Shown one piece after another: positions 6,251 to 24,337 of a stretch of 45,271 nt of DNA. The notes beneath the pieces were generated by a model. That model saw only the letters and a list, made by a program, of their open reading frames with translations. It was not told the origin of the DNA and did no database searches. Source of the DNA: an uncultured Saprospiraceae bacterium (lineage in GTDB: Bacteria; Bacteroidota; Bacteroidia; Chitinophagales; Saprospiraceae); the NCBI GenBank assembly GCA_937924035.1, contig CALDTK010000092.1, positions 1 to 45,271 of the forward strand, given 5' to 3'. Position numbers and translations under genes: made by a program. Position 1 is the first letter of the stretch. The number at the start of each line of letters is the position of its first letter.

Positions 6251-8443
6251 ATGCTTAAAAAACTCCTCACCGGGCTTCTTGTAGTACTTGCCATCATCGT
6301 GGTTGGACTCGTGCTAGTTATTTTTTGGCCAGCAGGTACTCCTCCCCCTCCGCGTACTGATGCATACAGCACCTTGAGTTTTACGGAGGCGAAAAGCAAA
6401 GCTGCAAGTTTAGTTGGTGAAATGACTTTAGATGAAAAAGTCGAACAACTGCATGGAGATCTCACGGGAACACCAGCACTGATCCGATGGGGATTGCGGG
6501 CCATACTTCGGCCAGGAAGAGACATTGTCAATAGTGGTTACAACGAGCGTTTGAATATTCCGCCTATTGCCTTCACGGACGGACCTCGAGGCATAGCCTT
6601 TGCAAACGGAGCGACAGCTTATCCAGTGGCAATGGCCAGGGCGGCCACCTTTAACCCCGAACTGGAGCGAGCAATTGGGAGTGCTTTTGGAATTGAGTCG
6701 CGCAGAGGAGGATACAACTATATCGCCAGTCCGTGTATCAATTTACTGCGTCATCCGGGTTGGGGACGAGCCCAAGAGTGTTATGGAGAAGATCCTTTTC
6801 TCACTGAACGAATGGGCGTAGCGCATGTCGCTGGTATTCAAAAGCATGGCGTGATGTCATGCCCAAAACACTTTGCCTTAAACTCACTTGAAAATCGACG
6901 CTTCACCGTCGACGTTTCCATCGACGAACGCGCACTCCACGAAGTCTATCTCCCGCACTTTAAAGCTGTAGTCGACAGCGGTACAGCTTCGATTATGAGT
7001 GCCTACAACAAACTTCAAGGTGAATATGCAGGTCAAAGTCGTTTTTTGTTAGAAGACATACTCCGCGATGAATGGGGATGGGAAGGCTTCATCACGAGTG
7101 ATTGGATAAATGGCGTTTATGATGCCGAAGCCGGAATTCATGCAGGGATGGATATCGAAATGCCGTGGAATAAGGTCTATGGCGAAATTCCAGATTTAAT
7201 CGCGTCAGGTACTATTCAAGAGTCCCGTATTGACACCCTTGTCAAAAGAGTGGTTGCAGGAAAGCTTTACTGGGCTTCGCAAGCTGGTGTTGCAGGAGCC
7301 GACTATAGCGCAGCGCTATCAACACTTGATCACAAGGAGCTTTCTCAACGTACTGCAGAAGAGAGCATGGTACTCCTTAAAAATGAAGAGGATGTGTTGC
7401 CTATGGTTCCAGAAGCGGTCGAGACTATTCTTCTCGTTGGTCCACTGGCAGAGGCCGATAATCTTGGAGATGCTGCGAGTTCTAAAGTTGATCCAGAATC
7501 AATAATGACGATAAAAGAAGGCCTAGAGCAAATCTATCCTGGCGCGAAGGTGGACTACATCACAGAAGAAAGCAGCGAAGAACTCAAAAGCGCAGCGGAG
7601 AATGCAGATTTTGTGATTGCTGTAGTCGGCTATGCGGCAGATGACGAAGGCGAGAACATTCAAATGTTCAGTGAGCGCGATCCGAATCAGCCCACATGGG
7701 GCACTGGAGGAGATCGAACAGATTTACGTTTGAAGCGGGAAGATGTCGCGCGATTAAAGGATTTGGCTGGGCTAAATTCTAAGACAGTCGCTGTGGTTAT
7801 AGGAGGATCAGCGATTACGATGGACGAATGGATCGATGGTATCCCTTCTGTTCTCATGGCTTGGTATCCTGGTGAGCGGGGTGGCGTAGCGCTAGCTAGA
7901 GTACTGTCAGGCCAGGCGATTCCTGGAGGGCGTTTACCGGTTAGTATTCCTAAAGAATCCAACCGACTTCCTCATTTTGATCCATTCGTAGACACTGTCA
8001 CGTATGGCTACTTTCATGGCTATACTTGGCTGAACAAGACGAAGCAAGCGCCTCGTTTCCCGTTTGGCTTTGGACTCGATTATTCAAAACCTTCGATTGA
8101 TTCTGCTTATGTGATCAATCCAACTCTAGGATTTGGAGATACTCTTCGCATTCAGGTGATGATCAAAGGCAATGGAAATCGAAACGGTTGGGCTGTTCCA
8201 CAAGCCTACGTAAGTTGGCCAGATGCCGCTGGGCGTCCTGATGGTGTCTTACAAGCTTTCGCCAAAACCTCCGTTATTCCAGGAGTAAATCAGCAGGTTG
8301 ATCTGGAAATTCCAACGATCAGACTGCGAAATTATGCAGGTGATGGGCAATGGAATTCAATACCTGGTGAGTATAAAGTTTATCTAGGGCTAGATGCGGA
8401 AGAAGCCAGGTCTAGGGTCATCTTTTTCAGCCTAACAGAATGA
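6251..8443 (+). CDS. Membrane-anchored glycoside hydrolase family 3 (beta-glucosidase type)
   Basis: A 730-residue, two-domain GH3 enzyme. Residues 4-26 form one hydrophobic anchor followed by a proline-rich linker, so the enzyme is probably held facing the periplasm. The TIM-barrel domain shows FTDGPRG, CINLLRHPGWGRAQECYGED, CPKHFALNSLENRR and ITSDWINGVYDAEAG. Asp284 in SDW is the family nucleophile. The alpha/beta sandwich domain (about 385-580) includes DDEGEN and GGDRTDLRL, the usual location of the acid/base glutamate. Then come YPGERGG and GGRLPVSIP. A short C-terminal beta domain follows FPFGFGLDYS. It cleaves terminal beta-linked glucose or similar sugars. No SusC/D genes are adjacent, so the substrate cannot be inferred. 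Start ATG at 6251. Confidence 0.92.
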   Translation: MLKKLLTGLLVVLAIIVVGLVLVIFWPAGTPPPPRTDAYSTLSFTEAKSKAASLVGEMTLDEKVEQLHGDLTGTPALIRWGLRAILRPGRDIVNSGYNERLNIPPIAFTDGPRGIAFANGATAYPVAMARAATFNPELERAIGSAFGIESRRGGYNYIASPCINLLRHPGWGRAQECYGEDPFLTERMGVAHVAGIQKHGVMSCPKHFALNSLENRRFTVDVSIDERALHEVYLPHFKAVVDSGTASIMSAYNKLQGEYAGQSRFLLEDILRDEWGWEGFITSDWINGVYDAEAGIHAGMDIEMPWNKVYGEIPDLIASGTIQESRIDTLVKRVVAGKLYWASQAGVAGADYSAALSTLDHKELSQRTAEESMVLLKNEEDVLPMVPEAVETILLVGPLAEADNLGDAASSKVDPESIMTIKEGLEQIYPGAKVDYITEESSEELKSAAENADFVIAVVGYAADDEGENIQMFSERDPNQPTWGTGGDRTDLRLKREDVARLKDLAGLNSKTVAVVIGGSAITMDEWIDGIPSVLMAWYPGERGGVALARVLSGQAIPGGRLPVSIPKESNRLPHFDPFVDTVTYGYFHGYTWLNKTKQAPRFPFGFGLDYSKPSIDSAYVINPTLGFGDTLRIQVMIKGNGNRNGWAVPQAYVSWPDAAGRPDGVLQAFAKTSVIPGVNQQVDLEIPTIRLRNYAGDGQWNSIPGEYKVYLGLDAEEARSRVIFFSLTE
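8255..8268 (-). repeat. Dispersed 14-mer, exact, minus orientation
   Basis: GCTTTCGCCAAAAC on the plus strand, inside the GH3 gene about 175 bases before its stop, encoding A-F-A-K-T. Confidence 0.85.
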
Positions 8444-8485
8444 AAGATGGTCAAATTGTGCGACCTTGATACGAGAGGTGTAGAC

Positions 8486-8750
8486 GCAAAAAAGCGAGCA
8501 AAACACGGCCCTTACCCCCCAGCGGAACCGGTCTCACTCGCTTCGTAAGCTCCAGAAGGAGCATACATCTGCTGGCCGAGAAGGCCATATTTTGTTGGCT
8601 GATTAAGCCATGTTTTCTGCCGTAGCGACGTAGGCCACGCTAGAAAATGATTGAGCTTCCGGACACAACCCTACCCCCCGATAGTCGGTCTTTCCACTCA
8701 ATCTAGAACCCGAAGGTTCGTCTCGTCACACCCTCAATAAGTTGGGGAGG
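8486..8750 (-). ncRNA. Candidate structured RNA: two similar modules flanking a chain of hairpins
   Basis: Two modules share ACAC, CCCT(T)ACCCCCC, CGGTCT and CACTC in the same order. Each is closed by a 7-bp stem: AAGCGAG 8492-8498 with CTCGCTT 8537-8543, and GATTGAG 8649-8655 with CTCAATC 8697-8703. Between them are four hairpins: 8549-8562 (GCTCC/GGAGC), 8573-8587 (TGGCC/GGCCA), 8596-8610 (TGGCT/AGCCA), and 8613-8647 (TTTTC plus TAGCG with CGCTA plus GAAAA). A further hairpin, 8706-8719, forms a C(UUCG)G tetraloop only if transcribed leftward. The left module's stem is followed leftward by TTTTTT, like a terminator. These two points favour the minus strand. It does not match what I know of RNase P RNA, tmRNA, SRP RNA or common riboswitches. 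The family and even the strand remain inference. Confidence 0.5.
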
Positions 8751-8976
8751 GGAGCGTCGATTGGTAAAGATTTTATTGGTTAGTTGGATGCAGATGGGCT
8801 GGAAGGCCTCTCTGATCAACGTTTGCATAAGTTCGAAAACCGTGCCATTTGGGTTACTCAGCGGGAGTTTCCCATTTTGTTACGCTCGTTTGCGTCAACG
8901 TCCGCTATAAGGCAAAGTGCGGGCCAAAACTGCCATTCGCGGTTGAATTTTGTGATTTTACTCGTAGAGATAAGTT

Positions 8977-8992
8977 TACCTAATATTAGGTA
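8977..8992. promoter_or_regulatory. 16-base perfect palindrome, possible operator
   Basis: TACCTAATATTAGGTA reads the same on both strands, about 120 bases before the start of the orphan gene at 9110. It has the form of a dimeric regulator site, but no regulator is encoded nearby. Confidence 0.35.
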
Positions 8993-9109
8993 TGGCTACC
9001 CTTGGGCTGGCTATAGATTATTTTGATTCTAGTCTTCCTTGACTATGTAGGTTGAGGGCGTTGTAAATTTTTGAGGTGCTTCTTAGTCTGACATTTCTAT
9101 ATTCAGGTT

Positions 9110-10669
9110 ATGATAGAATACTTATTCGTGCATTTTCGACATTCATCCTCAATCCTATGTTGCTTTCTCATCGTTTGCTGTTATTGTACTAATCTTTCAG
9201 CCCAGATAGGCATTGCGAGCTATGATCTCCGAGGTTCAGGTACTGAAAGCCAGCAGGCTGAGTTTAGAGCCTCACTCCTAAAGACACTCGATGGTCAACG
9301 TTTTGTTGATGATAATGAAAACCTTAGTCAAGACAGCATAATTTTTATTTCCCTAGAATCAAATAGTGGATTTTGGAAAAATGCTGTCAATGTTTGGCAG
9401 GATACGAATCAAGTGGCCAATAAGGCACAGGTGAAGGTCTCTAACTTGATGTACGTTTCTGTAGCTTTAGTGAAGGGCGGTACTGGTGAGGTTATTCGCT
9501 ATCGAGTGCCTTACATCAAAGACCTCGTGCTACTTGAAAATGATTTAGACAAATCTATCTATACCTCGGTGACAGTGTCTGACACAAAAAAAACAGGTTA
9601 CATAACGATCACCCTTCCAGAAGAAAAATTAAGTTCTGCTCCAGCTTTGGCGAAATCTGAAAACGATTCTCTCAAAAGGTGGGGGGCAAAAGCTTTTGCG
9701 CCTTACGTCAAAGAGCTTCAAGCTCAAATGCGAAAGGGAGCAGTAGAAAAGATTGCGGAAATTGTGAACGTTGTTGTTGGGCCATGGAAGTATGAACTCC
9801 CCACGACGTACAAGCTGTTTCGTTCTCAAGCTAGAGATGGTTTTGCTTTCATCGCCCCTAAAGGAGTACAGCGAGAATCATTGGCAGCTACCGTCATGCA
9901 ACAGAGTGGAGGAATACACCTTCCATCTCCTGTCTATAGATACGCTAACTGCAAGCAAGATGATCAAGGAAGCATGAAGACGCCGATGGCATTGATTACA
10001 GCAGGCCTAGGATTGTTGAAAATAGATGAAAGTGCTACATCCCTTCCTGAAGAAAAAGTCTTTCTAACTGCAGATTTAGCGCACTTCTATAAAGATGATG
10101 CAATAGATCCTAGCGATAAAGTAACGGTTGCTTTAAACTCCTTTTCCTACGAAGAATCCATTCGGAGTTTAGCTGAAAGTTTGGCGGCGAGTAGGTACGC
10201 CTCGTTCCAGCTAAAAGGAATCACGAAAAGACTAGCAGAGACTGGTAAAACAGGATTAGAAAAGCCTCAAGTTGAGATTGGATACAACGGCAACCGAATT
10301 GAAATAAAGACGAACGGAGAAAGTAAACCTTATTCTACTCCAGTATCGCCCAACTCAACATCACGTATTTTGCTCAGGCTCCTCCCTCATTTTCCAGCTC
10401 CTACGAGAATTGTACAGAGTAAGGTGAAAAAAGGAAAGCTGAAGTCTGGGGTTGTCGCGACACCGCTTACTATCGCTATGATTGGTTCGAGTGGAGTTGA
10501 TGTCGGTATCGGAGACACCTATACTACTGAATCTGAGGCGCTCATTAACTTCGGTGCAAGCGATAAACATTCCCACTTGAAAACGTTCCGAGTGTTTAGT
10601 GGCGAAGAAGCTCTTTTTCAAGCCCAAGAGAATAATACGAGACTTTGGATGCTTGATCGAATTCGATAA
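9110..10669 (+). CDS. Secreted protein of unknown family
   Basis: 519 residues. A hydrophobic N-terminal segment (about residues 12-30, rich in Cys and ending LSAQ) is a plausible signal peptide. The mature part starts IGIASYDLRGSG and has mixed alpha/beta character, with no transmembrane helix, no repeats and no T9SS sorting domain at the C-terminus. Patches such as ITITLPEEKL and VAVALNSFSYEES-like stretches do not match a family I know. It stands alone between the structured region and htpG, with a possible weak promoter (TTG at 9039, TAAATTTTTG at 9064-9073). A two-mismatch 14-mer variant lies at 9644-9657. I cannot assign a function. Confidence 0.75.
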   Translation: MIEYLFVHFRHSSSILCCFLIVCCYCTNLSAQIGIASYDLRGSGTESQQAEFRASLLKTLDGQRFVDDNENLSQDSIIFISLESNSGFWKNAVNVWQDTNQVANKAQVKVSNLMYVSVALVKGGTGEVIRYRVPYIKDLVLLENDLDKSIYTSVTVSDTKKTGYITITLPEEKLSSAPALAKSENDSLKRWGAKAFAPYVKELQAQMRKGAVEKIAEIVNVVVGPWKYELPTTYKLFRSQARDGFAFIAPKGVQRESLAATVMQQSGGIHLPSPVYRYANCKQDDQGSMKTPMALITAGLGLLKIDESATSLPEEKVFLTADLAHFYKDDAIDPSDKVTVALNSFSYEESIRSLAESLAASRYASFQLKGITKRLAETGKTGLEKPQVEIGYNGNRIEIKTNGESKPYSTPVSPNSTSRILLRLLPHFPAPTRIVQSKVKKGKLKSGVVATPLTIAMIGSSGVDVGIGDTYTTESEALINFGASDKHSHLKTFRVFSGEEALFQAQENNTRLWMLDRIR

Positions 10670-10783: not shown

Positions 10784-10892
10784 AGACTGACGGACTGACA
10801 GGATAATCCTCATGGATTGACCTTTGATGTATATGTGCCATGTCTTGGCCATGCCATGCCATATAAAACTACCACTCAAAGAAATCTCTGCT

Positions 10893-12815
10893 ATGTCTAC
10901 GATGACCAAAGGCCAAATTTCGGTCGAAACGGAAAACATCTTTCCAATCATCAAGCAATTCCTGTACAACGATCAGGAAATTTTCTTGCGCGAACTCGTT
11001 TCTAACGCTGTTGATGCTACCTCAAAAGTCAAAGCTGCAGCTCGTAAAGGCGATTTTGATGGGGAACTCGGCGATCTAACCATCAATATTGCTGTCGATA
11101 AGGATGCGAAGACCATCACAATCTCCGATCATGGTATCGGGATGACCCGCGAAGAGGTTGAGAAGTATCTCAATCAAGTTGCCTTCTCAAGTGCAGGCGA
11201 CTTCCTAGAGAAGTACAAAGACAACCTTAACGTCATTGGAAAATTCGGTCTCGGATTTTACTCAGCCTTCATGGTGGCCGATCGCGTTGAAGTAGTAACG
11301 AGGGGTTACTCAAGTGATCAAGCAACTCGCTGGGAATGCGAAGGACAGCCTGAGTACATGATCGGTGATGCTGAGCGCGAAATGCGTGGGACAGACATTA
11401 TCCTGCACGTCAGTGAGGATGCTGTAGAGTATCTTGAAAAAGAAAAAATCGAAGGACTACTCACCAAGTATTGCCGCTTCCTTCCTGTTCCAATTCAGTT
11501 TGGAATGAAGACGGAGACGACCTACGAGACCGTCAAAGAGATGGTCAAGGAGAAGGACGAAGACGGTAACGAGACGGAGGTCGAAAAGGACGTTGAGAAG
11601 CCAATCGAAAATGAGGTGGCCAATGTCATTAACGCTGTTGAGCCTATCTGGAAGAAGAGTCCTTCAGACCTCACCGATGAGGACTACAAGGCATTCTACA
11701 AAGAGCTTCATCCTTACGGACCTGATCCGTTATTCTGGATTCACCTCAACATTGACTATCCGTTCAATTTGACAGGAGTCTTGTATTTCCCACCGCTTCA
11801 AAATCAGTTTGAAGTGCAGAAGAACAACATCGCGTTGTATTCTAATCAAGTATATGTTACGGATGAGGTAAAGGACATCGTACCTGAGTTTTTGATGTTC
11901 CTCCATGGTATCATTGACTCACCAGATATCCCATTGAATGTAAGTCGTTCGGCCTTACAGAGTGATCGTCAGGTCAAGCAAATCACGGGTTACATCTCTA
12001 AGAAGGTATCGGAGAAATTGCACGAGATTTTCAAAAATGATCGTGAAGACTTCAATAGCAAGTGGAAGGATCTCGGTCCGATCGTGAAGTACGGTATGTT
12101 GACTGAAGACAAGTTCTATGACCGCGCGAGCAAATTTGCGATCATGCAAGAGCTCGACGGGAGCTTCTTCACGTTTGAAGAGTTGAAAGAGAAGATCGGT
12201 GAGACTCAAAAGGATAAGCACGACAAGATTATCGCCCTCTACTCAACCGGAGCTGATGATCAGGCGAGCTACATCGAATCTGCTCGTAACCGTGATTACA
12301 CCATCCTAGAGTTCGGTCATGTAATTGACAACCACTGGATGCAAAAGATCGAGCAGAAGGGTGGAGACTTCACTTTTGTACGTGTTGATTCGGATACCAT
12401 TGACAACCTCATCCAAAAGGACGAGGAGCGTGAAAGCGTGATGTCTGAAGACCAGCAAAAAGCGGTCGAAGGCATTTTCGAGAAGGTTGTCAAGGCTAGT
12501 GGAAATGGCCAAGTGCAGATGCAAGCTCTTTCTCCTGAGGATATGCCTGTGCAGATCACACGTAACGAGTTTATGCGTCGCATGACCGAAATGCAGCAAA
12601 TGCAAGGTGGAGGAATGGGCAACATGCCTGAGTTCTACAATGTGGTTATCAATACCAATCACCCGCTTGTAGCTGAGAAGTTAGCTAATGCAGAAGGTGA
12701 GTATGGTGAGATGCTTGCTAAGCAGTTGACGGACCTTGCGCGCCTTAATCAAGGAATGCTAAAAGGTAAGGAGTTGGCTGACTTCGTGAAGCGAAGTGTA
12801 GAAGGCTTGAGCTAA
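10893..12815 (+). CDS. htpG: Molecular chaperone HtpG (bacterial Hsp90)
   Basis: HtpG is a cytosolic ATP-driven dimeric chaperone. I start it at ATG 10893 because the family begins MTKGQISVETENIF or close to it. The frame is open further upstream to 10824, but that part looks non-coding. The 640-residue protein has the GHKL ATPase domain: FLRELVSNAVDA with catalytic Glu34 and Mg-binding Asn38, DHGIGMT (Asp79) and GKFGLGFYSAF. The middle domain has DSPDIPLNVSRSALQSD, and the C-terminal dimerisation domain includes a Met/Gln-rich stretch (MTEMQQMQGGG) typical of client-binding surfaces. An acidic, Lys-rich linker of about 30 residues (near 225-255) separates the first two domains. It is monocistronic with a strong terminator. 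Confidence 0.97.
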   Translation: MSTMTKGQISVETENIFPIIKQFLYNDQEIFLRELVSNAVDATSKVKAAARKGDFDGELGDLTINIAVDKDAKTITISDHGIGMTREEVEKYLNQVAFSSAGDFLEKYKDNLNVIGKFGLGFYSAFMVADRVEVVTRGYSSDQATRWECEGQPEYMIGDAEREMRGTDIILHVSEDAVEYLEKEKIEGLLTKYCRFLPVPIQFGMKTETTYETVKEMVKEKDEDGNETEVEKDVEKPIENEVANVINAVEPIWKKSPSDLTDEDYKAFYKELHPYGPDPLFWIHLNIDYPFNLTGVLYFPPLQNQFEVQKNNIALYSNQVYVTDEVKDIVPEFLMFLHGIIDSPDIPLNVSRSALQSDRQVKQITGYISKKVSEKLHEIFKNDREDFNSKWKDLGPIVKYGMLTEDKFYDRASKFAIMQELDGSFFTFEELKEKIGETQKDKHDKIIALYSTGADDQASYIESARNRDYTILEFGHVIDNHWMQKIEQKGGDFTFVRVDSDTIDNLIQKDEERESVMSEDQQKAVEGIFEKVVKASGNGQVQMQALSPEDMPVQITRNEFMRRMTEMQQMQGGGMGNMPEFYNVVINTNHPLVAEKLANAEGEYGEMLAKQLTDLARLNQGMLKGKELADFVKRSVEGLS

Positions 12816-24259: not shown

Positions 24260-24337
24260 GGGCGGTTAGCTCAGCTGGTTTAGAGCACCTCGTTTACACC
24301 GAGGGGGTCGGGGGTTCGAGTCCCTCACTGCCCACCA
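24260..24337 (+). tRNA. tRNA-Val, anticodon TAC
   Basis: All four arms fold: acceptor GGGCGGT with ACTGCCC (one G-U), D-arm GCTC/GAGC, anticodon stem CCTCG/CGAGG with loop TTTACAC (anticodon TAC at 24295-24297), and T-arm GGGGG/CCCTC with loop TTCGAGT. The 3' CCA is encoded (24335-24337). It reads GUA and the other valine codons. A terminator follows. Confidence 0.97.

Follow-up and report, generated by a model that had tools for sequence, protein, structure and literature searches.

A minus-strand structured RNA with repeated G-run loops beside htpG in Saprospiraceae

Positions 8486-8750 of a 45,271-nucleotide contig from an uncultured Saprospiraceae bacterium (GCA_937924035.1, CALDTK010000092.1; "the window" denotes this whole stretch of DNA) are crowded with short hairpins, which raises the question of whether they encode an RNA and what such an RNA would do. 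The stretch is noncoding and is flanked by a GH3 glycosidase gene (6251-8443, plus strand) and an open reading frame at 9110-10669 (plus strand). We found that it is an RNA gene on the minus strand, pointing away from htpG, and that it constitutes a new family; that it is a real functional RNA we consider almost certain.

The hairpin-dense stretch and its two modules

Read on the minus strand, the stretch contained all elements listed in the initial annotation: two modules closed by 7-bp stems, their shared sequence motifs, four hairpins between the modules (8545-8566, 8573-8587, 8597-8609 and 8612-8648), a UUCG-capped hairpin beside them (8706-8719) and a leftward run of six T (8493-8488). 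The RNA consists of two copies of one module, in which a small hairpin (P2) is followed by a two-part hairpin (P3) with the loop UGGGGGGUA. P3 is closed by the 7-bp stem GATTGAG/CTCAATC in module 1 (8649-8703) and by AAGCGAG/CTCGCTT in module 2 (8492-8543), where it runs into the T-run and looks like a terminator. The features are given below in the direction of the RNA; G000 is the genome of the window, G001 that of a sister species in the same genus, and R2 a covariance model of the module, whose run on individual loci took in 75 sources.

10824-12815, plus: htpG (Hsp90), the divergent neighbour (Pfam HSP90, 5.4e-54; found at 37 of 41 loci)
8850-8875, minus: conserved stem-like segment upstream of the promoter-like element, which may belong either to the transcript or to the control region
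8832-8847, minus: sigma-54-like element TGGCACGGTTTTCGAA, its -12 part off consensus; identical in G001, with counterparts in relatives
8489-8820, minus: putative RNA of about 332 nt, its 5' end estimated from the promoter-like element
8744-8754, minus: C-tract CTCCCCTCCCC, complementary to the G6 loops
8706-8719, minus: module 1 hairpin P2 with UUCG loop, from the fold; P2 covaries in the family
8649-8703, minus: module 1 hairpin P3 with G6 loop (R2 28.0 bits, E 0.00065)
8672-8679, minus: GGGGGGTA, module 1 loop; an identical string occurs in 38 of 100 htpG-upstream regions, always on the RNA strand
8612-8648, minus: linker hairpin; both G001 changes in it (8640, 8620) fall in the internal loop
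8597-8609, minus: linker hairpin, from the fold
8573-8587, minus: linker hairpin, its closing pair changed on both sides in G001 (8587 T to C, 8573 A to G)
8545-8566, minus: module 2 hairpin P2, from the fold; 8551 A to G in G001 keeps the pair as U-G
8492-8543, minus: module 2 hairpin P3 (G6 loop), which doubles as the terminator stem (R2 55.9 bits, E 1.6e-11)
8513-8520, minus: GGGGGGTA, module 2 loop; the same string in the same 38 of 100 regions, RNA strand only
8488-8493, minus: T6 of the terminator, of which the first two T are used by the 7-bp stem; T4-C-T in G001

The fold of the minus strand was better than expected (z -3.77; 1 of 200 shuffles as good), while that of the plus strand was unremarkable (z -1.23; 19 of 200). 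A plus-strand RNA was rejected on this difference and on the orientation of the best R2 hit, which was as expected in all 45 regions checked; the palindromic hairpins also yielded weaker hits on the other strand, for example at L215 and L181 (E about 0.003). Together with the covariation and strand bias described below, the minus-strand fold bears out the earlier impression of a pattern far from random. The case for a real RNA rests decisively on conservation and covariation in relatives, not on fold energy.

The 519-aa open reading frame between the RNA and htpG (9110-10669, plus strand) is absent from the syntenic G001 locus and had no above-cut-off match in Pfam or NCBIfam. Elsewhere in the window, a tRNA-Val (tac) lies at 24260-24337 on the plus strand.

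Conservation, covariation and distribution of the family

A blastn search of 60 genomes, the own one included, returned only G000 and G001, whose loci are syntenic except for the reading frame 9110-10669. Identity to G001 was 93.1% over 8820-8488 and 90.6% over 8905-8821; it dropped to 44.4% upstream (9100-8931) and to 52.6% past the terminator (8487-8450), and the long aligned segments of the neighbourhood, one of which contains the RNA, were 73.9-81.5% identical. The conserved unit is thus larger than the 265 bases given in the initial annotation; since conservation reaches 8905, the transcript may start farther 5' than 8820. Single-base insertions and deletions between G000 and G001 make a coding function unlikely. 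In the part that runs from module 1 to module 2, both sides of one stem pair differed (8587/8573) and another pair went from U-A to U-G (8551); the remaining changes fell in loops and linkers.

A covariance model built from these two sequences (R1) had hits at E<=0.01 in 28 of the 398 family genomes, G000 and G001 among them. The R1 loci showed the same conserved module, P2 and then two-part P3, with a P3 consensus of outer stem GUGAG/CUCAC, inner stem RACCAGUU/RRYUGGUY and loop UUGGGGGGUA. Loci carried 1 to 4 module copies, the last frequently ending in a T-run. In L114 there were four modules, in L104 the whole unit was repeated, and in genome G017 a second module pair lay on another contig (C1, L119).

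Covariation was assessed on a structure-blind alignment (A5) of 42 modules, picked by a pattern requiring a G5-7 run, so that loop constancy within this set is partly by choice. In A5, 92.5% of the cells were paired against 83.9±0.6% in shuffled controls, double changes were found in 122 cells against 38.8±6.0 (0 of 500 shuffles), and 14 of the 22 pairs had double changes against 10.2±1.3 (3 of 500); when the helices were slid by one column, 45-47% of the cells paired. In a set of 106 distinct modules fitted by the model, which is biased towards the structure, double changes occurred in 21 of 22 pairs. The G-run loop was the least variable part, with P3 reading UGGGGGGUA with few variants on stems that change freely. 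Independently of the selection by pattern, the two-sequence model R1 had already found G6-loop relatives. In an open scan for purine-run loops, GGGGGG was by far the leading class on the RNA strand (46, the next class having 3), and GGAGG was equally rare on the RNA strand and the other strand (3 versus 2).

The initial annotation had suggested searching Rfam and testing relatives for covariation, and both results favour its proposal of an undescribed structured RNA with a duplicated module and a leftward terminator. At gathering level, Rfam 15 matched only a tRNA in the whole window and nothing in 12 relative loci, and no match was found over 8440-9115 at E<=5. The annotation had also seen no match to RNase P RNA or tmRNA, and we rejected both: RNase P RNA was found elsewhere in G000 and G001, and tmRNA is complete elsewhere in G001 and has a below-cut-off contig-edge match elsewhere in G000. 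Its comparison with tandem riboswitches was not supported, since the RNA has a terminator of its own at its end and the downstream GH3 gene is convergent. A riboswitch or cis leader would lie upstream of a same-strand gene that it controls, which is not the case in the window; same-strand genes do lie downstream of the RNA in a few loci, such as L132 and L136.

We also rejected a phage or plasmid origin, as blastn found no match in the viral or plasmid collection. A pattern search of viral sequences, which covered one of eight scans, gave 19 hits, all single and without module flanks. The viral contigs L022, L023, L028, L032, L037, L039 and L040 share AGACCG-N-GGGGGGTAGGG, and most of them also have a common upstream stretch (agggagcctgccat...cacaccg); by its sequence this looks like one conserved phage element, unrelated to the RNA.

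The family looks like a Saprospiraceae feature, present in about half of the sampled htpG-upstream regions. In a pattern scan with one genome per species, 40 of 48 stretches were labelled Saprospiraceae or Saprospirales; the others comprised six from broader Bacteroidota, one from Lunatimonas (L111) and one from Planomonospora (L129), and R2 matched neither of the last two. With R2, at least 23 of 248 genomes were positive in a sample drawn from the order and at least 4 of 396 in one drawn from the class, own included and all within Saprospiraceae, both being undercounts because 16 or 10 candidates were scored per genome. Among 40 htpG-upstream regions of other families, none matched R2 at E<=0.1 (one at 0.12), and a single one held a hairpin with a G5-7 loop (R2 E 0.12).

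Linkage to htpG, promoters and a small-protein companion

We next considered the gene neighbourhood. htpG was located within three open reading frames upstream, in divergent orientation, in 37 of 41 loci, a count that leaves out repeats of already listed contigs as well as L065, L105, L108, L113, L119, L125, L127, L137, L138, L145 and L146. The htpG cluster was confirmed by Pfam for the window and L007 members, and the rest were joined to it by blastp. The four loci without htpG were L067, L069, L112 and L114; L114 stops 633 bases upstream of the RNA and L069 has a different neighbourhood. L112 is as long as contig G114:C172, on which htpG adjoins the RNA. The htpG table holds 20 of the 23 R2-matched genomes of the order sample, and in 17 of these 20 the RNA adjoins htpG; the R2 match and htpG are on separate contigs in G116 and G068, and in G031 htpG is at a contig edge, where linkage is not judgeable. 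A convergent gene of about 535 aa (an M28-type peptidase by eye) lies directly downstream of the RNA in 14 of the 41 loci (L064, L066, L067, L068, L070, L072, L075, L078, L079, L104, L114, L122, L126 and L147).

The linkage was also found starting from htpG. We examined 100 htpG-upstream regions of about 1.3 kb, mostly one per genus, from 152 genomes with htpG (L234, counted among them, has only 287 bases). R2 matched 41 of them at E<=0.005, and the best hit pointed away from htpG in all 45 regions checked, four of which were weaker. GGGGGGTA occurred on the RNA strand in 38 of 100 regions and on the other strand in none, and hairpins with a stem of 7 bp or more and an uninterrupted G5-7 loop occurred in 47 versus 2. 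By either criterion the RNA was seen in 51 regions, leaving 49 without it. Short versions, in which a promoter-like element is followed by a terminator hairpin of 9-12 bp with a G5-6 loop, were found at L210, L217, L231, L232, L235, L239 and L275.

Promoters were scored against the usual -24/-12 consensus. On the htpG side, the -24/-12-like TGGCA-TTTGA was present in 49 of 100 regions and never in reverse orientation, compared with 13 of 40 regions outside the family. Palindromic sites of the enhancer-binding type were found in 35 of 100 htpG regions (2.8 in shuffled sequence) and in 4 of 40 outside the family. The signal on the RNA side was weak, with a mean score over 38 regions of 11.16, where shuffled sequence gave 10.02±1.01 and the opposite strand 10.66; a looser pattern matched 22 of 47 regions against 10 of 47 in reverse, and sigma-54-like elements were seen by eye in relatives. 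rpoN (PF04552) was not found in G000 or G001, metagenome-assembled genomes that are about 85% complete, and was present in the other 24 of the 26 genomes searched; strong matches to PF00158 activators occurred in both G000 and G001.

These elements recall the chaperone regulon of Flavobacterium psychrophilum, where htpG is controlled from a -24/-12 promoter and the mapped starts of HtpG, DnaK, GrpE-DnaJ, GroESL, ClpB and Lon are sigma-54 promoters, according to the accessible part of PMC9723704; that part makes no mention of an RNA beside htpG. Based on the F. psychrophilum HtpG regulon and the promoter-like elements, we infer that the RNA most likely shares the sigma-54 chaperone, or protein-folding stress, response of Bacteroidota. 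Stress control of the RNA is probable, although the failure to find rpoN in G000 and G001 speaks against it.

In 13 of the 100 htpG regions the interval between htpG and the RNA holds a gene for a small protein, on the RNA strand, and all 13 have an R2 match at E<=0.005. The protein has about 80-100 aa (...TKFFYRxNHLCFQILL...DYAEYKKAF...; for example L109:4213-4458, minus; L106:3437-3691, plus; L128:6538-6786, plus). It belongs to no Pfam, NCBIfam, PHROG or PDB-sequence family, with stray weak matches only. The structure model (mean pLDDT 78.7, pTM 0.65) predicts mainly a four-stranded sheet plus a helix; Foldseek returned nothing at E<=0.001, and the best VIA-align hit had a Z of 7.4 over 61 residues, a level flagged as common.

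Possible functions of the G-run loops

In many multi-module versions of the RNA there are C-tracts that are complementary to the loops. The linkers and leaders of 20 multi-module loci contained 46 C-tracts compared with 11.5±2.5 in shuffled sequence and 1 on the opposite strand; in L064, L066 and L072, each linker holds two and the leader one. C-tracts were absent in 5 of the 20 loci, and none were seen by eye in the one-module L070, L126 and L147. As some loci lack them, in our reading the C-tracts gate the loops or act as their partners and are not their main target.

We propose that the noncoding RNA is transcribed from the minus strand, divergently from htpG, with its last module as terminator. 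Every module presents a G-run (UGGGGGGUA) in the loop atop a stem of drifting sequence, and the 1 to 4 loops could serve as seeds acting in trans: the RNA would build up under stress, the repeated G-runs may pair with C-runs of target RNAs and thereby alter translation or decay, and in larger versions the linker C-tracts may pair with the loops and gate them. As a whole, this protein-folding-stress mechanism is a tentative proposal that we hold at clearly less than even confidence.

A close rival, which we find rather doubtful, is a protein sponge in which the repeated loops titrate a regulatory protein that recognises the G-run. CsrB presents one loop motif, with GGA in the loops, on several hairpins, and CsrB and RsmZ bind and titrate CsrA and RsmA. 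As in CsrB, CsrC and RsmZ, several hairpins here present one motif, the loop staying constant and the stems drifting among the 1 to 4 copies, and the small protein, all of whose 13 regions are R2-positive, could be the partner; the motif is GGGGGGUA, however, and not GGA in the loop. The sponge would also have no need for complementary C-tracts, the small protein is absent beside 28 of the 41 R2-positive regions, and its structure search gave no convincing match. Another rival is a self-assembling scaffold, in which the C-tracts pair with the G-runs within or between molecules, or the G-runs form G-quadruplexes, to give a large RNA particle. Such particles have been proposed for other ornate bacterial RNAs, a duplicated scaffold is a possible reading of the repeated module that the initial annotation had also offered, and complementary loops and C-tracts co-occur in 15 of 20 multi-module loci; against assembly stand the one-module versions without C-tracts (L070, L126, L147) and the short terminator-like versions, and we judge it improbable.

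Two further explanations appear quite unlikely to us. The loop GGGGGGUA could act as an anti-Shine-Dalgarno decoy that pairs with the 16S tail and holds 30S subunits in stress. The 3' tail of 16S rRNA usually reads GGAUCACCUCC; in G150 (L279, 1500-1560) we noted GGAAUACCUCCUUUAAAG in its place. This tail reads AAUACCUCCUUU, and its UACCUCCU and GGGGGGUA could form 8 base pairs, two of them G-U. But GGAGG-type loops, which would match better, show no excess over the other strand, and the dominance of GGGGGG over the rare GGAGG argues against Shine-Dalgarno imitation; moreover, the htpG region of G150 itself (L278) has neither an R2 match nor a G-loop hairpin, and only 1 of 24 genomes yielded a 16S sequence. 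A cis element, that is, a bidirectional terminator, an insulator or a cis regulator of htpG, has about as little in its favour: the last module doubles as a terminator and the place adjoining htpG is conserved, but termination would not call for a loop with a constant G-run, for a second hairpin that covaries or for copies separated by hundreds of bases, and copies away from htpG exist (G116, G068, L069). A chance fold or functionless DNA palindrome, which would agree with a plus strand that folds no better than shuffles, is refuted in our view by covariation and strand bias and retains next to no probability.

Among described RNAs, the CcsR RNAs have a similar arrangement. CcsR loops carry CCUCCUCCC, which is missing here; the present loops are G-runs with C-tracts in the linkers, the opposite loop polarity. 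The accessible part of PMC10253847 describes CcsR1-4 of Rhodobacter sphaeroides (CIN1) as four homologous tandem sRNAs behind the small-protein gene CcaF1, which share one heat-shock-type sigma promoter, end in a Rho-independent terminator and play a part in stress defence. The small protein of Saprospiraceae differs in having no DUF1127 or other above-cut-off Pfam match and in lying upstream in a minority only, and here htpG is the divergent neighbour. Rfp18 of Flavobacterium, for which stem-loop pairing is proposed in the accessible part of PMC9723704, is likewise a structured Bacteroidota sRNA, the likeness being one of description only. In the open-access literature we found no described regulatory RNA in Saprospiraceae.

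Covariation of this kind would back the proposal of a new Rfam family. A loop that keeps its G-run while the stems drift also offers a clean handle, as mutation of one loop would separate the seed, bait and scaffold models. It is conceivable, though we lean against it, that the trans-acting RNA proposed here represents a new class of stress RNA at the Hsp90 locus, in which C-tract-gated tandem G6 loops would serve as a general seed or bait, reprogramming translation or capturing a regulator during misfolding. A noncoding RNA that is part of the Hsp90/chaperone response would link regulation by RNA to the quality control of proteins across a large Bacteroidota family from the environment.
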